Below are positions 8,554 to 26,203 of a DNA stretch of 29,371 nucleotides, piece by piece (positions within the stretch are counted from its first letter, which is position 1; each line of letters opens with the position of its first letter). The translations under genes and the position numbers were made by a program. The DNA is from a virus: the IMG/VR virus record IMGVR_UViG_3300032297_000837, positions 1-29,371 of that record; one strand, given 5' to 3'. The notes below the pieces were generated by a model. It saw only the letters and a list, made by a program, of their open reading frames with translations. It was not told where the DNA came from and made no database searches.

Positions 8554-10827
8554 TCAAAATCCTATCCAAGATAATACTTCTGAATCTGAGTTTGGGTACA
8601 TCCTTTTCCATTGGTTATTAACAGATACATATATAGTTTTTTCTGAAACTACGTATATCATTACCCCTGGATACAAAGAAGCAGTAGGCAAATTTGAAAA
8701 AGATTGAACTGCTGCCGCTCCATTTTTAAATAAATCTTTATACTCTAGATATCCTTCTTCATTTGCTAAGTCTATCCAAAGATCTGTCTCTGCGGGCGTT
8801 GGAGGGGTCAAAGAAGAGATAATAGACTGACCTGCAGTATCATCTAAGTCTATCCAAAGCTCGCCTGTGTAAGAGGGGTTTGCTGGCTCGTTTGCACTAT
8901 ATATTAATTCTGCAATTGGCTCGTCAGTATCAATCCAAAGGGTATCGGTGTTGTAATTTGTTGGAGCTTCTGGCCCAGCATAAATAAATTCTGTTGCACC
9001 TGCATCATCATCAACGTCTATCCAAAGATCTCCAATGGTTGTTGCTCCTGATGGCGGTTCTATTAAACCAACAAAGAATGTGCTTGGTGGTGCAGATGCA
9101 TCTGTTGGAATTAATGTGAGTCCTCCGCCACCTCCTCCAGAACCTTGAATATCTTGCCAAAGCAATCCATCCCAAACCTTAAGCTTATTTAGTGGCTTGT
9201 TATAATAAATTTGTCCATGTACTGGGGATGCTGGTGCTGCGTCTAATCCAATAATTATACCGTTAGTGTATGTATTTTTAGATGTCCATGTGTTTGTTGT
9301 AGATAAAGAAAGATCTGATGATACATATTCCCAAGTAGAGCTTGATGCTTGCCAAACCTTTAATGCCTTTACGGTTCCACTTCTAAATTCATCTGTATCA
9401 AGCCAAAATGTTCCATCTGCTGGTGATGTTGGGGCAGAGGCTGACATAATAGCCTTAGAAGGAGGAATTATTGTTTCTAATATTAACTTGTTTGCTTCGT
9501 CGTCATAGGTTGCAGTTATATTAGGATTTAAATTGTGTACAAAAAGAGGAGCTATGTAATCCTGTGCTTGCTCTTGTGTTAGCTGTGCTATAACGGAAAG
9601 ATTAATTTTATTTGTAACATCGTCATACGCTGCAACTACATTTGAATGCCCTGCATGAGTAAATAGGCTTGCGGCAGCGTCTTGTGCCGCCTCGGCAAAA
9701 CCTGGAAGGTCTGCTGTGGTTATGTCAAAGTTTATTTTGCCTGTTGGATCATCATATGTAACTGAAAGCCCTGTGGCTTCTGTATTGCCAGAAACCATGC
9801 CGCCGACAACGTCTTGAATTCTTTCATCTGCGTCAGCAAGGGCAAGGTAGGTAGATGCTGCAGTTGTTATATTAAGCTTAGTAGAAAGGGCAGTAGTTAT
9901 GGTTGTTGCAAAATTAGCATCATCGCCAATTGCTGCGGCAATTTCATTTAGAGTATCTAGTAGTGCTGGTGCTGCATCAATAAGATTAGATATTGCGGTA
10001 TTAACATATGTCTTATCTGCAATAACTGATGTGTCTACTGCCAAGGTGATTGTATTGGCAGTATCATCATAGGTCTTTGTTATTCCATTGCCCGCCGTCA
10101 AAGATGTGGCGATGGCGTCCATGACTTCTTCATCATCATAGTTTGCAGTTAAACTTAGTTTTGCAGCCGTATCATCATATGAGACGGTTATATTGTAGTG
10201 CGTTCCGTCTGTAATTAGTTTTGCTGCTACATCTTGAATCTTTTCATTAAGATTTAATTGAGATTCAGGAACAAATCCATCTGGGCCCAAGGTTGCAATT
10301 CCGTCTGCATTTCCAACCTGTGTGACTGGAACAAAGCTAGTCCCAACAGTATTTCCAAGAGCAGTAATTGCAGAATCTACATATAGCCTAGTTGCTATGA
10401 CTGTTGTATCTACAGATACGGTTATTGTATTAGCTACGTCATTATAAACTTTTGTAATTCCTGAACCCGCTGTTAATGATGTAGCAATGGCATCCATTAC
10501 TTCTTCATCATCATATGTAGCGGTTAGGCTCAATGAGTTGGCAACATCGTCATAATTTACTGTTATGTTGGTATGCGTTCCAGCAGCCAATGAGGCAGCA
10601 ATTGCGTCTTGCGCCAATTCATTAGTGTAAATTTTAGATATTAAGTCTCGAACTTTATAATCTATACTTGTAACATCTGTCGAATTATCAACACCCAGTT
10701 TAGCCTCTAAGGCTTCAATTGCGTCATTAGCATTTGAGTGTTGGGCGGCATGAGATACAAGCTGAACAGAATCAGTAGCTGCTGGATTTAGCAGTTGATC
10801 TAGTGTCGTAGGGAATGTAGTTGCCAT
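8554..10827 (-). CDS. Modular long tail fibre protein
   Basis: This 757-aa protein has three zones. Residues 1-60 form an N-terminal attachment module (HAAQHSNANDAIEALE, common at the start of phage fibres). Residues 70-455 form a repetitive shaft with about nine YDD or YND units of the form NITV.YDD.AN.L.L, two copies of TAG.GITK.Y(N/D)D.ANTIT, and one APALLDTLNEIAAAIGDD module. Residues 460-690 carry five short LW(I/L)D or FWLD modules followed by acidic turns. A glycine run (563-569) acts as a hinge. The C-terminus is beta-rich. The same shaft modules occur in the 435-, 462- and 578-aa proteins. The usual ribosome site is missing or too far away (AGGGGG, 13 nt), while a TATAAT lies seven bases before the ATG. 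The gene follows the sugar-enzyme island. Confidence 0.85.
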   Translation of the reverse strand: MATTFPTTLDQLLNPAATDSVQLVSHAAQHSNANDAIEALEAKLGVDNSTDVTSIDYKVRDLISKIYTNELAQDAIAASLAAGTHTNITVNYDDVANSLSLTATYDDEEVMDAIATSLTAGSGITKVYNDVANTITVSVDTTVIATRLYVDSAITALGNTVGTSFVPVTQVGNADGIATLGPDGFVPESQLNLNEKIQDVAAKLITDGTHYNITVSYDDTAAKLSLTANYDDEEVMDAIATSLTAGNGITKTYDDTANTITLAVDTSVIADKTYVNTAISNLIDAAPALLDTLNEIAAAIGDDANFATTITTALSTKLNITTAASTYLALADADERIQDVVGGMVSGNTEATGLSVTYDDPTGKINFDITTADLPGFAEAAQDAAASLFTHAGHSNVVAAYDDVTNKINLSVIAQLTQEQAQDYIAPLFVHNLNPNITATYDDEANKLILETIIPPSKAIMSASAPTSPADGTFWLDTDEFRSGTVKALKVWQASSSTWEYVSSDLSLSTTNTWTSKNTYTNGIIIGLDAAPASPVHGQIYYNKPLNKLKVWDGLLWQDIQGSGGGGGGLTLIPTDASAPPSTFFVGLIEPPSGATTIGDLWIDVDDDAGATEFIYAGPEAPTNYNTDTLWIDTDEPIAELIYSANEPANPSYTGELWIDLDDTAGQSIISSLTPPTPAETDLWIDLANEEGYLEYKDLFKNGAAAVQSFSNLPTASLYPGVMIYVVSEKTIYVSVNNQWKRMYPNSDSEVLSWIGF

Positions 10828-10865: not shown

Positions 10866-11684
10866 TTATCCAAGTATCTGGTTTTGCTTTATTTCTGACT
10901 GAATTGCTTGTTCAAATGTATACTCTGGTTTCCACCCAAAAAGAGCTCGATTATCTAAGGATGGAAAAACTGAATAGTCATCTTTATCCAGTAGCGTGTA
11001 CTCGACGTCTAATCCGTTAACTCGATACTCCTCTAGCACCTCTATTAATGTCCTGGATTTTCCTGTAAATATATCTGTTGTAAAAGAATAGCTATTTTGT
11101 AAATGCTCCATAGCCATAACATTTGCTCTTGCTATATCTAATACGTGTACATAATCTCTTGTGGAGGTAAAACTGTTAACCTCTATGCTTGAATTGTTTT
11201 TAATTACTTCAAATACATTAGTTGATTCGGTGTCACATACTGTTTCTGTCTTACCTACAATATTAAAATACCTCAAAATAGCAACTGCAGGACAAATAAG
11301 ATTTAACATTCGCTCCTCCCACTTTTTGCTTTTGGCGTAGGCATTATTGGGAGCATAAACAGCTGCAGATGAAGCAAACACTACGGGTATAGAAAATACT
11401 TTAGCTACAATAGCAACAGACAAAGTAGATAGAAAATTATTGAAATAATATAAATAAGGATTTTTTTTAGATTCTGGAATAGATTTTTTAGCTGACAAGT
11501 GAATTATTGCTGTTGGAAATTTATTAAAAGCATAAATAAATAAAAACATTGTGTTTCTACCAATTTTTTTGTCTACTTCAATTACTTTATATCCTGATGA
11601 TTCAAGCAGCTCTTTAGTTGCTGTTCCAACATAGCCTCTGGATCCAGTCAGAACTATGTTAGCAGTTTGCAAGTATCTCACCAT
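10866..11684 (-). CDS. NAD-dependent sugar epimerase/dehydratase (extended SDR, GalE-like)
   Basis: This 272-aa protein starts with a Rossmann nucleotide-binding motif TGSRGYVG (residues 13-20). It has the SDR catalytic set: Ser at 105-106 in FASSAAVY and Y116-x3-K120 in YAKSK. A later block TSTRDYVHVLDIARA is typical of GalE-like nucleotide-sugar epimerases. It is shorter than usual GalE (about 330 aa). Its likely substrate is a nucleotide sugar in the cytoplasm, which would feed the neighbouring glycosyltransferase. The printed start overlaps the upstream gene by 26 bases. A TTG at codon 5 with GGTGAG just upstream would give a more family-like N-terminus (QTANIVLTG), so the start is uncertain. 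The exact sugar cannot be read from sequence. Confidence 0.85.
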   Translation of the reverse strand: MVRYLQTANIVLTGSRGYVGTATKELLESSGYKVIEVDKKIGRNTMFLFIYAFNKFPTAIIHLSAKKSIPESKKNPYLYYFNNFLSTLSVAIVAKVFSIPVVFASSAAVYAPNNAYAKSKKWEERMLNLICPAVAILRYFNIVGKTETVCDTESTNVFEVIKNNSSIEVNSFTSTRDYVHVLDIARANVMAMEHLQNSYSFTTDIFTGKSRTLIEVLEEYRVNGLDVEYTLLDKDDYSVFPSLDNRALFGWKPEYTFEQAIQSEIKQNQILG

Positions 11685-12576
11685 TTACAAAATCAAGCCC
11701 TGCAAAAACTCCATACTCAGCAATTGTTCTTTCTGTGCCAAGAAGCATCTCTCCAGTGGTTCCTTCTGTTAAGGTCTTATAAATAAGTTTTTTAGAAATA
11801 ACATCTAGTGCATTGAACTCTTCTGGAAAATCTGCCCACAATAGTTTGCGCTTGTTTATTTCAGCAGGCTTATCGTGATTGTAATATAGATGGTACATGT
11901 ACTGCTCATTTGGAACAAGAATATCAAAGCCATGAGTATATGCTCTTGCCGCTAACCATATCTCTTCTCCATAGAATGCTATGTCTGTATTGAATGGCTG
12001 AAAACCTTTAACTGTAAATATTGATCCGCCTGATACAGATTTAACAAATATATTGCCGTCTTCAATAGGCATTGCTGTTTGAAGAGGAATTCTAGTTTCT
12101 CTAAACTGAGCTGGATTTTCATGAAAACTAATGTTTCTTAAATAACCTGGCGAAAGAACATCTTGCTCTACAAATTTAGCATCTAGTGATGGATACCAGT
12201 AGTTTGCTGGGTACATTGTAATTAATGGCTTGTGTATTCCTTGAATTTGATAGTCTAACACGGAATTTATTGCAATTTCGTCCCACCCCTTAACAAACCT
12301 TGAGTGAGAATCACATTGTAAATAATAATCTTCACCGTCATAAAATTGATGGGCAAGGGCTCTTCCTATTCCCAGACCAATGTTCTCTGGTGCTTTGCTT
12401 TCAGCATGTTTAACATTAGGTAAGTCTGGAACATTAATTTCTGACTCTTCTACATAAACAGTGTGGACTCCAAAATTAATTTGATGGTTTCCGCTTGATT
12501 TTTTTATTGCATCTAAAATTGTTGGAGTTACTTCAAGGTCTCTGTATGCTGCTATTTGTACAAATATTCTAGCCAT
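11659..12576 (-). CDS. GlcNAc-type glycosyltransferase (GT-A fold)
   Basis: This 305-aa protein begins with IFVQIAAYRD..VTPTILDAI, the start of the glycosyltransferase (GlcNAc) family related to Skp1 GlcNAc transferase. Its metal/nucleotide-sugar DxH-type motif is C-D89-S90-H91-SRF within YYLQCDSHSRFVKGWD. A typical downstream block is FYGEEIWLAARAYTHGFDI. These enzymes move a sugar, usually GlcNAc, from a UDP donor to a protein or glycan in the cytoplasm. The ATG overlaps the stop of the radical SAM gene (TAATG) with GGGGTGA upstream. The neighbouring epimerase could supply or convert its donor. Target candidates are the surrounding fibre proteins or a host surface glycan; the sequence does not decide between them. 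Confidence 0.87.
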   Translation of the reverse strand: MARIFVQIAAYRDLEVTPTILDAIKKSSGNHQINFGVHTVYVEESEINVPDLPNVKHAESKAPENIGLGIGRALAHQFYDGEDYYLQCDSHSRFVKGWDEIAINSVLDYQIQGIHKPLITMYPANYWYPSLDAKFVEQDVLSPGYLRNISFHENPAQFRETRIPLQTAMPIEDGNIFVKSVSGGSIFTVKGFQPFNTDIAFYGEEIWLAARAYTHGFDILVPNEQYMYHLYYNHDKPAEINKRKLLWADFPEEFNALDVISKKLIYKTLTEGTTGEMLLGTERTIAEYGVFAGLDFVNGEILANC

Positions 12577-13580
12577 TAATCACCCCAAATTGCATGAACA
12601 CAAGTTCTGCAGAAGTTTTCAAATGATTTAACAGTCATCATTTTATGCTCTATGCTCATCCATATATCACTAATTGGTTTATCATTTATATTTCCGAATA
12701 CAGTTTCGAAATCGTAATCATTGCAACAGATAAAGGTATCTCCATTAGCAGCAACATGTAACCATCCATTTGGCCTTCCGCCAACCTCTATGCCATTACC
12801 GCAACCAGTTACTCTTTCCTTGCCTTTTTTTTCTTTGCTCTCAATAGCAGACCTATTTGTAATAATTTGATGAGTGTCTAGGTGGCCATTTCTGTCAACA
12901 AGATATGGCATTTCATAAACTTGAACATCGGGAAACATTGCTTTCCATCCGTTTGTCATTCTTGCAAGACTACCAGTTTCAAGATCTATATCTATCTCTG
13001 GTGCATTTACTAGCTTCTGAATCCAGCCGCCATATTCTACAAGGGAGTTCTTGTTAATTCCGTTTACTTGAATAGATATTGCTTTGCTTGCAACCATTTC
13101 TGGAAGCTGCTCCATAGCATAACTAACTTGTTCAATTAGTTTGTCAAACATCTTAATAGGCTTTCCTGTTGCCTTTGCCCATTCTTCTGCTTCTGAGGCG
13201 GGCATATTAAAACAAATACCGTAAACAACATCTTTGTATTCTTTAATTAAGTCTGTTCTAGCTTTGGTCAAAGGTGTACCATTAGTCAAAATAATAGTTC
13301 TCATTTTATTTTTTCTTAGAACCTCAAGCATTTCTGGGAAATACTTGTAAAGAAGAACTTCATTATAATGAGCTGTGTATATAAAATCAAAAGTATCAGA
13401 AACAAATGTGCCTCTGCCTGCAACCAGCTGATTAATGATATTTTCAAATGTTTCAATTGGCATATTCATTCTTTGTGCTGAAGGGTTTTCAGCATATCTT
13501 ACAGGGCAAAACCAACAGCCAACATTACAAAGACCATTAGGGTCAATTTGGGCCATCGATATTTTGTATTGATATTTCAT
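12576..13580 (-). CDS. Radical SAM enzyme with SPASM-like C-terminus
   Basis: This 334-aa protein has the radical SAM iron-sulfur motif C18-x3-C22-x2-C25 (CNVGCWFC), followed by a normal TIM-barrel-like body (TIILTNGTPL, residues about 94-103). The C-terminal part has a SPASM-like Cys set: C260 (GCGNG), C285/C286 (DTFICCND), then C324-x2-C327 (CRTC), within the usual G.I.D.PISDIW context. SPASM proteins bind auxiliary Fe-S clusters and commonly modify peptides or sugars. It sits directly downstream of a small Cys-rich gene (22-bp gap) and overlaps the glycosyltransferase gene. Its substrate is unknown: a peptide substrate (the 84-aa protein or a Cys-rich fibre tip) or a sugar substrate are both possible. 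Confidence 0.88.
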   Translation of the reverse strand: MKYQYKISMAQIDPNGLCNVGCWFCPVRYAENPSAQRMNMPIETFENIINQLVAGRGTFVSDTFDFIYTAHYNEVLLYKYFPEMLEVLRKNKMRTIILTNGTPLTKARTDLIKEYKDVVYGICFNMPASEAEEWAKATGKPIKMFDKLIEQVSYAMEQLPEMVASKAISIQVNGINKNSLVEYGGWIQKLVNAPEIDIDLETGSLARMTNGWKAMFPDVQVYEMPYLVDRNGHLDTHQIITNRSAIESKEKKGKERVTGCGNGIEVGGRPNGWLHVAANGDTFICCNDYDFETVFGNINDKPISDIWMSIEHKMMTVKSFENFCRTCVHAIWGD

Positions 13581-13602
13581 ATAAGTCTTCAGATTACTCT
13601 GC

Positions 13603-13857
13603 TTACCATTTTCCTATTGGGCAAGAAGCTCCAGCAAGTTTAGTTTTTAAAGCCATAAAGCATCCACATTTTTTGCATTGCTTAGTTAGCGATATAAGCT
13701 CTGGACATAATTTGCAAATCTGATATCTTGCTTCGGATGTTTCTTCATCGACATATTCTGTATTTGGATTAAGAAGGTCCCATGGCTTTACATCTCTTTT
13801 TTCGCTTTTTTCAGCTTGTTTTTCTAAATATTTTTCCCACCTAGTTTTTTCTGTCAT
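13603..13857 (-). CDS. Small Cys-rich metal-binding protein
   Basis: This 84-aa protein has a charged, helical N-terminal half (TRWEKYLEKQAEKSEKRDVKPWDLLNP). Its C-terminal half carries C-x2-C (CKLC), C-x2-C-x-C (CKKCGC) and a final Cys in CPIGKW, which fits one zinc-ribbon or rubredoxin-like site. I know similar small proteins from phages, where they often lie next to glycosyltransferase genes, but no function is established to my knowledge. The ATG overlaps the upstream stop (ATGA), with GGAG ten bases before it. The position immediately before the radical SAM gene makes it a candidate partner or substrate of that enzyme. Confidence 0.7.
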   Translation of the reverse strand: MTEKTRWEKYLEKQAEKSEKRDVKPWDLLNPNTEYVDEETSEARYQICKLCPELISLTKQCKKCGCFMALKTKLAGASCPIGKW

Positions 13858-14216
13858 GGGTGAAACACTCCATCTATATACTTAGACCCAATAGTAACCC
13901 AAAGGGAATCTTCTGGAACTGCTATAAATTTAGGATTACTCAACATGATAGAGGCAAGCCTTTCATTTAATCTAATATATTGTTTTTCCCCCGAATCTTT
14001 ATCTGTTAAAGATATATCTATTTCTTCGGTATCTGGAAAAAATTCTTCTTCTAAAACTATAGAATTATTAAACATATTAAAAAATTCAATAGAATAAATG
14101 CTATTTTCTACTACTAAATTATCAATAACAAAACATGCAACTATGTGCAAATCAGCAGTGAGGCCTACTGGTTCTTGATCACTGTTAAAAATATGTACAA
14201 TGTTTTTACTTAACAT
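13854..14216 (-). CDS. Small protein of unknown function
   Basis: This 120-aa protein starts MLSKNIVHIFNSDQEPVG, is acidic and contains an alternating hydrophobic pattern consistent with a small beta-rich fold (LTADLHIVACFVIDNLVVENSIYSIEFF). The ATG at 14216 is preferred. A TTG at 14234 in the same frame would add MIKWLL, but it lies only a base or so from the GGAG. That GGAG is instead ideally spaced (nine bases) to an out-of-frame ATG at 14226 that would make a six-residue peptide ending inside this gene. Its stop overlaps the next start as ATGA, which binds it to the radical SAM island. It is not recognised. Confidence 0.6.
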   Translation of the reverse strand: MLSKNIVHIFNSDQEPVGLTADLHIVACFVIDNLVVENSIYSIEFFNMFNNSIVLEEEFFPDTEEIDISLTDKDSGEKQYIRLNERLASIMLSNPKFIAVPEDSLWVTIGSKYIDGVFHP

Positions 14217-14257: not shown

Positions 14258-15658
14258 CTAGCAACCTGCTGGGAAATATGTGTTTCCGTCATATAAACAC
14301 TGTCCGACATATCCGCAAGGATTACTTGGGTTAGCAACGTCTGCAGAGTTACACTTCCAGTATACCCGTGGTCTTGAGGTTGTTGCAGGTGCACTCGTTG
14401 TAGTAGGTGCTGCAGTTGTTGCAGGGGCTGATGTAGTAGTTGAACAAGATGCTCCTGATGCTGCACCGTCAAAACACTGACTTGTGCTGGTACAAGGACT
14501 GCTAGGATTTGCAATATCTTGAGGCGTACATCTATTTAATCCAGGCTTAAATGCTGGGTATGTAGGTGCTGCTGTAGTTGTAGTGGGAGCTGGGGTAGTT
14601 GTAGTAGTTGCATTAGGATCTGGACAAGAAGGACCAGATGCGCCGTTATTAACGCAGTTAACTCCAGTACCGCTTCCATTGCTTGGGCATGGGCTTGCTG
14701 GGTTTGGAGCATCTCCTGCAGCACAGTAATGATATCCAGATAGGAGTGCTGGGTATGTAGTGGGGGCTGGGGTAGTTGTAGTAGTTGCTGCGCTATAGCG
14801 GTAAATGTATAAGGTAGCGTTGTATGTGTAGTTACAGGTACCAGTATTAAACCCAGGAGAAGGATCTTGCGCTGCCACAGTTCCATTATTTTGTGGGGTT
14901 GCTCCTTGAGAATTATCGTACTCTACCGTGTATTCATAAGCTATACCCTGTGCAACAACTGCGTTTGATGCTGAAGATTCTGAAAGACCTACAACATTTG
15001 GCATAATTCCACAACTTGGTGCTGGAGTAGTAGTTGGTGGAGCTGGAGTGGTAGTGGCAGGCGCCGAAGCTGTGGTAAAACTTGTACTAGCAGATGCAGA
15101 TGATCCGCTATAGTTTGCGTTTGCATATAGAGTTACTGTTACAGAATAAGTTGTTCCAGCAGAAAAACCAGAAAGTAAAACAGGGAAGTTTGCAGATGAT
15201 GAGGTTGGTTCATTATTTGAAGATCCATTGCTTGCTACTACTGTGTAGGAACCCCAACCACTTCCGCTCCACGCAATGTAAGCTTGATTTTGAGTCCAAG
15301 ATTGTCCAGCTCCAGCTCCGTATGCAACAGCACTGCTAATGTTTGGATATGGTGGTGGCGCTGGAGTTGTAGTAGTGGTTGGTGCTGGAGTAGTAGTAGT
15401 TGGTGCTACATATAGATAATAACTAAATGAAACAGAGTCACCGATTTTAACTGTAGCTCCGCTTGCAATTCCTTGATTTTCAATTACATTGTCTAAATTT
15501 ATATTTTGAACAACAGATGAAGTTTCAGTCCAATTAAGTCCGACAGAATTTAAAAGATCTTTTGCTTGAGATCTGCTTAATCCAGATAGTGATGGAACTG
15601 TTACTTTTCTTATTCCAACTTTACCTAGTCGGCCAATATGGCGAGATCTTCTAGCCAT
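14258..15658 (-). CDS. Tail protein with PASTA domains, Thr/Pro linkers and Cys-rich repeats
   Basis: This 466-aa protein is strongly modular. A basic N-terminus (MARRSRHIGRLGKVGIRK) is followed by a first PASTA-like domain (about 19-85: VPSLSGLSRSQAKDLL...), a Thr/Pro linker (APTTTTPAPTTTTTPAP) and an FN3-like domain (about 106-205). A second PASTA-like domain (MPNVVGLSESSASNAVVAQGI, about 220-290) follows, then three C-terminal Cys-rich units separated by more Thr/Pro linkers. Each Cys unit has the form C-x3-(D/G)-x2-NP-x2-PC ... C ... C. PASTA domains bind peptidoglycan or beta-lactam-like ligands in Gram-positive kinases. In a phage this suggests docking on the host wall. Thr/Pro linkers resemble those of secreted actinobacterial proteins and could be glycosylated. 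It lies next to the glycosyltransferase island. Confidence 0.78.
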   Translation of the reverse strand: MARRSRHIGRLGKVGIRKVTVPSLSGLSRSQAKDLLNSVGLNWTETSSVVQNINLDNVIENQGIASGATVKIGDSVSFSYYLYVAPTTTTPAPTTTTTPAPPPYPNISSAVAYGAGAGQSWTQNQAYIAWSGSGWGSYTVVASNGSSNNEPTSSSANFPVLLSGFSAGTTYSVTVTLYANANYSGSSASASTSFTTASAPATTTPAPPTTTPAPSCGIMPNVVGLSESSASNAVVAQGIAYEYTVEYDNSQGATPQNNGTVAAQDPSPGFNTGTCNYTYNATLYIYRYSAATTTTTPAPTTYPALLSGYHYCAAGDAPNPASPCPSNGSGTGVNCVNNGASGPSCPDPNATTTTTPAPTTTTAAPTYPAFKPGLNRCTPQDIANPSSPCTSTSQCFDGAASGASCSTTTSAPATTAAPTTTSAPATTSRPRVYWKCNSADVANPSNPCGYVGQCLYDGNTYFPAGC

Positions 15659-15659
15659 A

Positions 15660-16967
15660 TTAAGCGCTCAAATCGCCAAGTACAACCCAAGAATTAAATG
15701 CTCGTTTAATAAGAGTGGCGCTACTCCACCTTGCACGTAATTTTAATCCAGGAGTAGAATTTGGGGTAAATCCATCTCCTACTATAGTAACCTGAGAGGT
15801 TCCTGTTTGTAATATATCCACAGAGTATCCAACTGGAAATACGGTAGAGTCTATTATTGTTACAGTTCCTCCTGCAGACATTTCAATAAGTCTTCCAGAA
15901 TCAATTGGGGCAACAATATAGTTACCAGATTTAGAGTTTATTGTTATTGTATCTGCAGACTGTACAGAAATTGATCCTGCCATTGATGAATGGAATTGGC
16001 AAGCATAGTAAAGGTCATCTGGTGCATCTTGAGGAAGCTCTACTAGAATGTGACCTGATTGTGCTCCTCCATTTGTTATACCAGTTGAATATACATTTCC
16101 TGAGCTATAAGCTCCAGATACTGTTTGAATCCAGAATGGGTGTCCTGTGGCATTAACATGAATACGATATTTTTTACCTTTTTCAAATGTAATAAGACCG
16201 TTAGATACTCCGTTTACCAAATAGGATCCAGATCCAGAGTTAGTGATGTAATAGTCTACCGAAGGATCTGATAAGTTTAGTTTTAAATCGAGTGCTGTCT
16301 GTGTTGCGGTAGAAACTGGCTTAAGTGCATCGGTTGTATTGTCAACATTAGCAAGTCCGACCATTGTTTTGTCTATGCCAGCGACTGTGCCTGTAAAAGT
16401 TGGAGATGCAATTGGTGCCTTTAGTCCCAAGGCCGTTGTTATTGTTGCGGCATAAGATGCATCATCATTTATTGCAGCCGCTAATTCATTTAAAGTATCT
16501 AATGCTGTTGGTGCTCCATCAATTAAATTTCCTAGTTCTGATATTGGAATTCTGCCATTTGTGTCAAGGGTTGCAACTCCATCGGCATTTCCAAATAGAG
16601 TCATTGGAATATATCCAGTAGAAACTGTATCATCTAATGCATCAATTGCTTCATCAACATACAATTTGCTTGCAATAGTGCTATCAACTGCAAGTGTAAT
16701 TGTATTTGCATTGTCATTATATGTTTTTGTAATTCCCGTTCCTGCTGTTATTGCAGCTTCAACTGCATCTTGAGCAAGCTCTGTTAGTTCGCTTGGGATA
16801 ACATTTAGGTATGGTAAAACATTCCATCTAGAAGTTTCTCCTGAAGCAATTCCAACTTTAAACCTATTTACTGTTATATCAAAGCCAAATTCTCCAACTT
16901 GTAATATTGGATTATTGGTTGACCAGTTAGTAGAGGTGTCTCTTCTTACTTGTAATCTAACTGCCAT
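15660..16967 (-). CDS. Tail fibre protein carrying a cupredoxin-like domain
   Basis: This 435-aa protein has an N-terminal RRDTSTNWSTNNPILQVGEFGFD module (about 8-50) like the N-terminal domain of phage tropism determinants and fibres. Shaft modules are shared with the 578- and 757-aa proteins (LTELAQDAVEAAITAGTGITK, about 61-95; APTALDTLNELAAAINDDA, about 152-171). Residues about 236-336 form a cupredoxin-like domain: GHPFWI (H276) and YYACQFHSSMAGSI (C323, H326, M329), which are all four classical type 1 copper ligand positions. Similar domains exist in marine phage proteins. Residues 340-435 are a beta-rich cap. AAGGGG precedes the ATG. A virion fibre is confident; copper binding is inferred from the residues. 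Confidence 0.85.
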   Translation of the reverse strand: MAVRLQVRRDTSTNWSTNNPILQVGEFGFDITVNRFKVGIASGETSRWNVLPYLNVIPSELTELAQDAVEAAITAGTGITKTYNDNANTITLAVDSTIASKLYVDEAIDALDDTVSTGYIPMTLFGNADGVATLDTNGRIPISELGNLIDGAPTALDTLNELAAAINDDASYAATITTALGLKAPIASPTFTGTVAGIDKTMVGLANVDNTTDALKPVSTATQTALDLKLNLSDPSVDYYITNSGSGSYLVNGVSNGLITFEKGKKYRIHVNATGHPFWIQTVSGAYSSGNVYSTGITNGGAQSGHILVELPQDAPDDLYYACQFHSSMAGSISVQSADTITINSKSGNYIVAPIDSGRLIEMSAGGTVTIIDSTVFPVGYSVDILQTGTSQVTIVGDGFTPNSTPGLKLRARWSSATLIKRAFNSWVVLGDLSA

Positions 16968-24564: not shown

Positions 24565-25566
24565 CTAGGAAAATTTTTCTACTAAATGTTGAAAGGCTTT
24601 CTTAGTCAACTGATCCCAATTATAATCTTCATGTATTTTATCTGCTTGAGCAAAATAATATCCAGAATAACCTTTATAATCAATAGATACATCACGCATT
24701 AGTTGTTCTAAATGTTTTGCATCTGGTTTAAACATTTTTCCAATGTACTCATCGCCAACAGATTTAGGTAAAGTCTCATCTGTAAGTTTAGATTTTAATT
24801 TGAGTGGTCCCATATAGTCCACATAGTGAGACCAATCATATGTTGATATAACTGGCATACCTGTTGCTAAACCTTGAAGCGGTATGAAACCAAAACCTTC
24901 TCCCCAAGTAGGGTATAACAAAACATGGTGGCTATGATACAGAGAAACAAGATCTGTTTCTGATAACTCTTCTGTAATTAAAGATATATTGTTATGAGCC
25001 ATTTCTGGACTCATAAACTGATTATGTTTATCGTATACCCTAGTAGTATTAAACTTGTGAGCTTTAATTGTTAAATGATAGTTTGGATTTCCGCCGAATA
25101 GCTTAATAAAAGTATCTACTGCTAGTTGTGCATCTTTTCTTGGAGATGGTTCTCCTATGTGTAAAAACTTAAGCGGTTGCCCTTCTCTTAAAACTCTGCG
25201 TTTTGGCTTCCAAATTTTTTCTATACCGTGTGGGTAAACATATATTGGCTTTGTAACACCGTTGTCTTTAAATACTTGTGCACACCAATCTGATGTCGCC
25301 CAGACTTCATCACAAACATTAAATCTTTCAACCCAGTCTGGTCTCATGGAAGTTGATTCCCACGGAGTGTATCCAATCTGATATTGATTTCTGTGTAACT
25401 TATAATGGTGAGGCTGAGTAAAGTTTAATTGAACAGTAGATTTAGGGTTAGCAAAAGATACAGCATGTCCTAAATTATTTAAAGAATTAACAATATTTTT
25501 TCCTGCATAGCCGAAGCCAACGGCAGGATCTAGTCCCGCTTGAATAGTATAATAAGATATATTCAT
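24565..25566 (-). CDS. GT-B fold glycosyltransferase (GT4-like)
   Basis: In this 333-aa protein an N-terminal half with VGFGYAGKNIVNSL (acceptor-side glycine loop) is followed by IYVYPHGIEKIWKP and FLHIGEPSPRKD (about 108-144), the start of the donor domain. LLYPTWGEGFGFIPLQGLATGMPVI (216-240) is the nucleotide-sugar binding block. The usual E-x7-E motif reads E223-x7-Q231 here, so the second acid is replaced by Gln. The protein probably transfers a sugar from an activated donor in the cytoplasm. It is the first gene of the leftward block, with only a weak AGAAAG site before its ATG, and it is divergent from the transglycosylase. Substrate unknown. Confidence 0.85.
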   Translation of the reverse strand: MNISYYTIQAGLDPAVGFGYAGKNIVNSLNNLGHAVSFANPKSTVQLNFTQPHHYKLHRNQYQIGYTPWESTSMRPDWVERFNVCDEVWATSDWCAQVFKDNGVTKPIYVYPHGIEKIWKPKRRVLREGQPLKFLHIGEPSPRKDAQLAVDTFIKLFGGNPNYHLTIKAHKFNTTRVYDKHNQFMSPEMAHNNISLITEELSETDLVSLYHSHHVLLYPTWGEGFGFIPLQGLATGMPVISTYDWSHYVDYMGPLKLKSKLTDETLPKSVGDEYIGKMFKPDAKHLEQLMRDVSIDYKGYSGYYFAQADKIHEDYNWDQLTKKAFQHLVEKFS

Positions 25567-25588
25567 GTTTTCTTTCTGGTTGACTGGC

Positions 25589-25618
25589 TTGACAGGCCTA
25601 TCCTATCAATGTTATGAT
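25589..25618 (+). promoter_or_regulatory. Sigma70-type promoter of the transglycosylase operon
   Basis: A perfect -35 TTGACA (25589-25594), an 18-base spacer and a -10 TATGAT (25613-25618) stand in the divergent gap, giving a short leader of about 27 bases to the chosen start at 25652. A second TTGACT starts nine bases earlier. Confidence 0.8.
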
Positions 25619-25651
25619 TGTAGTTCGTTATCTCTAGAGGAGGAAATGCCA

Positions 25652-26203
25652 ATGGAGAAAATAAAACAACAGGTTAGTGATTTGGCTCATAATCTGGTTA
25701 CAATAGTAATGATAACATTATTTATGTTTCCAGTCCAGCCTACACAAGCCTTAGTAGTAAAACCTTTAGTGAAAACTGAAGCCCAACTAAAGCAAGAAGT
25801 CTTAGATAAGTTCAGTAAAGAAATTTACAAGCCATCTGAGATGCTTACAGACGAAGAGCTAGTATTACTACTCAAGACTGTAGGATTCGAAGGAGTAGGC
25901 CTTAAGAAAGCTTGGTCCATAGCAAAGCGTGAATCTAACGGAAGACCGCTTGCATATAACGGGGATAAGACAACTGGAGATAGTTCTTACGGAATATTCC
26001 AGATAAACATGATTGGAGATCTTGGTCCTGAAAGACTTGAGAAATTCAAACTAGAGAGTAACAGAGAGTTATTCGACCCAGTAACAAACGCAGAGATAAC
26101 GTATTATATGACCAACGGCGGTATAGATTGGTCGGCTTGGAAGGGTATGACCCCAAAAGCTAAGGAATGGCTATTGCAATTCCCGATTGATCAGAAAAAG
26201 TAG
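25652..26203 (+). CDS. Exported lytic transglycosylase / lysozyme-like protein
   Basis: This 183-aa protein has a signal peptide: charged MEKIKQQ, hydrophobic core around 15-28, and PTQA before a likely cleavage near residue 33. The C-terminal catalytic domain shows AWSIAKRESNGRP with the catalytic Glu at 94, SSYGIFQIN (111-119) and DPVTNAEITYYM, the standard SLT/goose-lysozyme-like order. It would cut peptidoglycan strands outside the membrane, for lysis or for DNA entry. The ATG at 25652 is chosen because GGAGG is eight bases upstream; the ATG at 25646 is too close to it. It is the first gene of a short rightward operon with its own strong promoter. Confidence 0.85.
   Translation: MEKIKQQVSDLAHNLVTIVMITLFMFPVQPTQALVVKPLVKTEAQLKQEVLDKFSKEIYKPSEMLTDEELVLLLKTVGFEGVGLKKAWSIAKRESNGRPLAYNGDKTTGDSSYGIFQINMIGDLGPERLEKFKLESNRELFDPVTNAEITYYMTNGGIDWSAWKGMTPKAKEWLLQFPIDQKK

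Follow-up and report, generated by a model that had tools for sequence, protein, structure and literature searches.

The DNA examined here, hereafter the window, spans 29,371 bases and makes up a complete virus record of IMG/VR (IMGVR_UViG_3300032297_000837); it comes from a freshwater phage whose structural proteins bear a distant likeness to those of cyanophage myoviruses. Its tail block contains an island of five genes, all on the minus strand, which encode a 120-amino-acid (aa) protein that starts with ATG and has no Pfam or PHROG match (13854-14216); an 84-aa zinc-ribbon-like protein of DUF6171, here called Cys84 (13603-13857; PF19668, 1.2e-6; phrog_13558, 2e-16); a 334-aa radical S-adenosylmethionine enzyme (rSAM) of apparent twitch type with a BtrN-like fold (12576-13580; PF04055, 2.7e-9; PF13186 SPASM, 3.9e-9); a 305-aa glycosyltransferase (GT) of PF11397 (11659-12576; 3.4e-34, 119.3 bits against a curated cutoff of 21); and a 272-aa GalE-like NAD-dependent nucleotide-sugar epimerase/dehydratase (10866-11684; PF01370, 1.9e-21), in which the GxxGxxG (GSRGYVG) and YxxxK (YAKSK) motifs of extended short-chain dehydrogenases/reductases (SDRs) are both present. 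Because they share a strand and are joined by overlaps of 26, 1, and 4 bp and a single 22-bp gap, the five genes form one transcription-like unit. A preliminary description of this DNA had reported five closely packed genes interrupting the tail block, among them a Cys-rich 84-aa protein, an N-acetylglucosamine (GlcNAc)-type transferase, and a GalE-like epimerase, and all of these open reading frames (ORFs) and assignments were confirmed. On the upstream side the island is flanked by an adhesin gene (14258-15658, minus strand) and then by a fiber gene with an Mtd_N domain (15660-16967, minus strand; Mtd_N, 3e-8; tail-fiber PHROG matches), and on the downstream side by another fiber gene (8554-10827, minus strand; tail-fiber PHROG matches). 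The GC content of the island genes is 0.29-0.36, compared with 0.38-0.47 in the adjoining tail genes, and blastn with the island region returned nothing beyond short fiber matches.

The adhesin, which is the probable substrate of the island enzymes, is a Thr/Pro-rich stalk protein with a PASTA domain (2.3e-14), in which TTTTPAP repeats ((TTTT)PAP; for example, APTTTTPAPTTTTTPAPPP) are interspersed with Cys-rich modules. The Thr codons of the repeat are mixed, with an entropy of 1.65 bits, and the repeat is therefore likely to be kept at the protein level. In many relatives, the gene preceding the cassette encodes a stalk composed of an N-terminal anchor, SPLxRxPSGIGIxLR, about 60-400 residues of near-perfect repeat, and a Cys-rich tip, whereas the repeat itself is exchangeable (TTTTAAP, PT, PPVV, PPVT, PPPIIAT, VP, AP, and others). 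DNA microsatellite slippage was considered as the sole source of these repeats and is unlikely, given the mixture of Thr codons (1.6-1.95 bits). A scan seeded on the backbone gene upstream of the stalk, and thus blind to both repeat and cassette, recovered a recurrent layout of backbone gene, stalk, small gene, Cys84, and enzymes.

The arrangement of the island is conserved. Scanning IMG/VR with the rSAM protein of the window yielded 28 loci, and the order Cys84-rSAM-GlcNAc transferase is kept in nearly all relatives that carry the transferase, most of them with the epimerase behind, which argues against a chance arrangement; the same core genes are retained at 80-93% protein identity. One scan with an rSAM profile detected relatives in 111 viral stretches, and the best 80 loci among them were retained; a single such scan of 84,980 species of bacteria and archaea gave only 4 loci, and on that account the rSAM family is essentially viral. 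No match at 1e-5 was obtained by tblastn of rSAM and the transferase against 50,697 phage records, and therefore neither has a cultured host. Two loci, L023 (4050-11240) and L309 (8491-16085), have rSAM next to some seven different 2-oxoglutarate (2OG)-Fe(II) oxygenase genes in an array, with no GlcNAc transferase and no Thr or PT repeats nearby (L023 also has an SDR and a DUF6065 gene), and thus represent an unusual, hydroxylation-only form of the cassette. A cluster in the cultured cyanophage Synechococcus phage S-SCSM2R (L611; PQ898602.1, ~226800-236300) combines 2OG oxygenases and several GTs with a 3-amino-5-hydroxybenzoate (AHBA)-synthase-like gene, a radical SAM maturase, and an inosamine amidinotransferase, and resembles amino-sugar or aminocyclitol chemistry.

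The cassette is physically linked to Thr-rich repeat genes. A gene with three or more TTT runs lies within 2 kb in 36 of 65 unique rSAM loci and in 18 of 35 PF11397 loci devoid of rSAM, as against 6 of 99 collagen-repeat controls. Where a unique rSAM locus has a Thr-rich gene (41 cases), the median distance of that gene from rSAM is 3 genes, compared with 7 for other genes, and it lies within 4 genes in 39 cases, compared with 35% for the other genes of the same loci; the preliminary description had stated that an island occurring mostly away from fiber genes would speak against its proposal, and that is not the distribution found. The link was also recovered from scans seeded on the backbone gene or on the repeats: rSAM or a PF11397 GT was found in 7 of 119 TTTTAAP loci and in none of the 120 seeded on collagen (Fisher p 0.007). 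Glycosyltransferases in general are also commoner next to TTTTAAP genes. Among the 25 Pfam families listed for 107 neighbor proteins of TTTTAAP genes were GT2 (six times), PF11397 (twice), and Gly_transf_sug (twice), while the 25 families listed for 110 control proteins included no glycosyltransferase.

The composition of the cassette varies with the class of the repeat, and the Thr stalks are accompanied by rSAM, GlcNAc transferase, and epimerase. Among 41 classed stalks, a 2OG-Fe(II) oxygenase accompanies 26 of the 32 that are Pro-rich versus none of the nine that are Thr-rich (p 1.4e-5), a comparison weakened by the inclusion of rSAM-seeded loci among those nine, four of which came from the unbiased scan. 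All 32 Pro stalks are accompanied if a divergent gene with an HxD/E motif is counted; such genes are named only 2OG-like because hhalign aligned just 27 columns to the 2OG family, with a probability of 27%. Nine of 10 oxygenases checked were clear members of PF13640, and the protein of L349, a Thr-repeat locus, fell below the cutoff for every 2OG model. On the tree of the backbone gene the repeat class switches four times, and the presence of the oxygenase changes alike in all four cases, a number below the power of a sign test. As rSAM, transferase, and epimerase are found with both TTTT and PT stalks and the oxygenase chiefly with Pro-rich ones, the oxygenase looks specific for proline and the other three enzymes would be specific for sugar or Thr. 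The window belongs to the Thr class, and no 2OG gene was found within its own cassette. Pro-repeat cassettes also contain other sugar enzymes, that is, a weak O-FucT match (L530:5245-6276), a GT61 match (L559:9352-10326), and a nucleotide-sugar-dehydrogenase-like protein (L577:8931-10259), which suggests that the stalks differ in their glycans.

The preliminary description had called rSAM a radical SAM-SPASM enzyme. The Pfam matches to both domains hold, but the invariant cysteines do not fit a full SPASM domain, which requires seven auxiliary cysteines for two clusters. In 42 sequences, the CX3CX2C cluster motif (C18, C22, and C25) and five C-terminal cysteines (C260, C285, C286, C324, and C327) are invariant; the four required for one auxiliary cluster (C260, C285/C286, C324, and C327) are present in a region that aligns to BtrN, and the auxiliary domain thus appears to fit a one-cluster twitch like that of BtrN. 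BtrN was the only solved relative found by sequence search (1.6e-12), aligned in the core and the C-terminal cysteine region, and was also the top structural match of the predicted model (predicted local distance difference test [pLDDT] score 92; Foldseek 9e-11, Z 20.3 over 226 residues at 2.9 Å), followed by SuiB, SkfB, DesII, and anSME at Z 17-18. BtrN, which has one auxiliary cluster, oxidizes an alcohol of an aminocyclitol (PMC9012708), and because it is the nearest relative, the predicted chemistry that we tentatively favor for rSAM is an oxidation or similar reaction at a carbon that bears a hydroxyl group, with a transferred amino sugar as the simplest target; our confidence falls somewhat short of even because peptide-acting enzymes have the same fold. 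The fold, the CX3CX2C motif, and the auxiliary four-Cys pattern are common to both enzymes, but the substrate of BtrN is a free aminocyclitol, whereas the phage enzyme is phage-borne and linked or fused to GTs. In four loci of deltaproteobacterial metagenome-assembled genomes (L402-L405), rSAM is fused with a PF11397-type transferase in a single ORF of 622-623 aa that matches both profiles, and in another viral clade it either is fused to a distinct domain of ~310 aa or has that domain encoded directly before it; the predicted model of this domain (pLDDT 93) is a GT-A/GT8-type glycosyltransferase resembling WbbM, UGGT, glycogenin, and LARGE1 (Z 14-15, best 14.9). Fusion or adjacency to two unrelated transferase families ties rSAM to glycosyl transfer. 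Just upstream of the fusion gene, L405 has small pentapeptide-repeat-like and PAAR-like genes, and its surroundings are perhaps those of a contractile injection system. Relatives of the GT8-like domain also occur in phages of Lactobacillus, Staphylococcus, and Lactococcus and in the cultured Enterococcus phage 9183 (L613:6001-6870), where the gene, encoded right behind that of the major capsid protein, is a candidate capsid glycosyltransferase.

PF11397 is the family name given to GT60-like polypeptide GlcNAc transferases. In the transferase, D89-x-H91, E204-E205, and H229 are invariant over 17 relatives, and D89-x-H91, E204, and E205 are candidate metal- or donor-site residues. In loci devoid of the epimerase, the transferase is of another subtype, ~60-65% identical to that of the window, compared with 75-88% where the epimerase is present, whereas rSAM identity tracks the phage backbone; this difference suggests that transferase and epimerase belong together as donor use and donor supply. 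Cys84 is a constant core member of the module that adjoins rSAM and is also found in cassettes with 2OG oxygenases and without rSAM. The 120-aa protein, described before as unknown, indeed lacks database matches but shows a weak likeness by hhalign (66% probability, E 6e-5) to a family of ~145 aa encoded behind the stalk in relatives, of which it is probably a divergent counterpart, possibly with a role as a stalk chaperone.

Taken together, we think it likely that the island is a modular, virus-encoded glycosylation system, carried as a late-operon cassette, that acts on the mucin/extensin-like tail stalk of the phage itself. The preliminary description had proposed a modification of the virion, for instance of the Thr/Pro-rich and Cys-rich adhesin, and the gene linkage, together with the way in which cassette content follows repeat type, argues for that proposal; we infer stalk substrate, sugar, linkage, and rSAM chemistry alike. 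The epimerase would make a nucleotide sugar, e.g., uridine diphosphate (UDP)-N-acetylgalactosamine from UDP-GlcNAc, which the PF11397 transferase would attach to hydroxyl groups of the Thr-rich repeats in the adhesin, and the BtrN-like rSAM might then oxidize or otherwise alter a hydroxyl-bearing carbon, preferably of the transferred sugar or else of Thr, with Cys84 and the 120-aa protein assisting at the stalk as adaptor or chaperone. Where relatives have Pro-rich repeats, an added prolyl-hydroxylase-like 2OG oxygenase would create hydroxyproline acceptors. O-Glycosylation of the stalk, on Thr hydroxyls directly and on Pro after hydroxylation, fits because the oxygenase accompanies Pro repeats and is absent from most Thr-repeat cassettes.

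Several observations weigh against this interpretation. Of 110 viral TTTTAAP genes examined, 103 have neither rSAM nor a PF11397 GT within 4 kb, and a sequence search of the PDB with the transferase profile matched no solved structure. A strict rule over all GT loci, by which a PT repeat means 2OG and a T repeat means none, had to be rejected owing to exceptions: in L019 and in six GT-only loci, Thr repeats are accompanied by an oxygenase-like gene of another subfamily, and no 2OG gene was found in the PT-repeat GT loci L389, L391, L420, L465, L485, L490, and L504. The match between repeat and enzyme is based on few independent switches, since branch support for the four on the backbone-gene tree is weak and the association of PT repeats with 2OG on the rSAM tree (15 of 18 versus 2 of 51) comes mainly from one clade, with few independent changes for a sign test. 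In addition, neighboring genes may be transferred together for reasons unrelated to function.

The enzymes might instead remodel lipopolysaccharide (LPS) or other envelope glycans of the host and thereby block superinfection. A report on pelagimyophages reads the GT and radical SAM genes next to tail fibers in their host-recognition clusters as LPS modification (PMC7029224), and LPS is also built by GT8-like and GT2 enzymes; however, PF11397/GT60 transferases act on polypeptides, the genes here lie within a structural operon directly behind the stalk, and cassette content tracks the stalk repeat, all of which make a host-surface role unlikely. It is quite improbable that the genes are unrelated cargo (morons) lodged in a permissive gap behind the fiber genes and functionally unconnected with the stalk: gene exchange is known to be frequent in fiber regions, and the GC content of the island is lower than that of its neighbors, but cargo would hardly be expected to show core genes kept at such identity, GT fusions, and a repeat-dependent composition.

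The position of a small Cys-rich ORF immediately upstream of rSAM in nearly all loci, and the presence of SuiB, SkfB, and anSME among the near structural matches, would agree with a system for ribosomally synthesized and post-translationally modified peptides (RiPPs), in which Cys84 is a precursor peptide cross-linked by rSAM. A RiPP precursor has a leader and a variable core and is obligatorily paired with its maturase, whereas Cys84 is strongly conserved across its whole C-terminal half in a ribbon pattern with no leader/core division, occurs without rSAM, and turns up next to a 2OG-like gene in the cultured Synechococcus phage S-IOM18, which has a related module of fiber, Cys, and 2OG-like genes; we regard this explanation as very improbable. 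Hypermodification of phage DNA bases by the oxygenase, rSAM, and GTs seems hardly credible. Other phages are generally known to use such enzyme classes for base modification, viral GTs acting on DNA are known from the literature, and some of the 2OG proteins give weak Tet_JBP matches; these matches are, however, below cutoff whereas those to PF13640 are strong, and the location of the genes in the tail block and their link to protein repeats would be left unexplained. None of the explanations by host envelope, DNA, RiPP, or cargo accounts for the match between repeat and enzyme.

The glycosylation system proposed here has a parallel in the Skp1 pathway of Dictyostelium and Toxoplasma, in which Gnt1, a named GT60 enzyme of the CAZy classification, transfers GlcNAc to a hydroxyproline made by a prolyl hydroxylase (PMC6939170). 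The PF11397-type transferase is shared with the window, and the 2OG oxygenase gene is shared in the cassettes of related phages. A single Pro is modified in that pathway, whereas the phage version is viral and would act on long repeats, and the window differs further in its Thr repeats, in that no oxygenase was found, and in its extra radical SAM, epimerase, and Cys-ribbon genes. Virus-encoded GTs near fibers and glycosylated virions are already known. According to Freeman 2023, as cited in PMC12619734, mycobacteriophage GTs modify the C termini of capsid and tail-tube proteins; phage-encoded GTs for structural proteins are thus in common, but the present case would involve a dedicated repeat stalk and a matching multienzyme cassette. 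The pelagimyophage clusters share the fiber-adjacent GT and radical SAM genes, but stalk repeats and their match to enzymes are not described in the available text of that report (PMC7029224). A literature search covering phage mucin-like stalks, tail prolyl hydroxylation, and radical SAM enzymes on fibers, with most subscription journals outside its scope, found no report of the combination, and what appears to be new is the repeat stalk family with its matching hydroxylase, transferase, and radical SAM cassette, the enzyme families themselves being known.

Elsewhere in the window, a second glycosyltransferase (PHROG 2170, GT4-like) is encoded at 24565-25566 on the minus strand, away from the island and upstream of ribonucleotide reductase, and the gene at 25565-26203 on the plus strand encodes a protein related to a lysozyme/SLT-like one (SLT_3 in L007), the gene of which comes after the cassette on the opposite strand in relatives.

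With about as much confidence for as against, we extend the proposal to many uncultured aquatic phages, which may carry a modular mucin/extensin-like stalk together with a matching cassette, namely, hydroxylases for Pro repeats and rSAM plus transferase for a radical-modified glycan on the virion. To our knowledge, radical-modified glycan chemistry is not known on virions. If this is true, bacterial viruses would use enzymes of their own to make mucin- or extensin-like glycoprotein stalks for themselves, the genome sequence alone would predict which modification each stalk receives, and the enzymes would offer a natural toolbox for glycosylating simple repeats. It would also give a function to a near-exclusively viral rSAM family and to DUF6171, and a role to a large number of glycosyltransferase and 2OG oxygenase genes, labeled "auxiliary," that are now read as related to LPS or metabolism.

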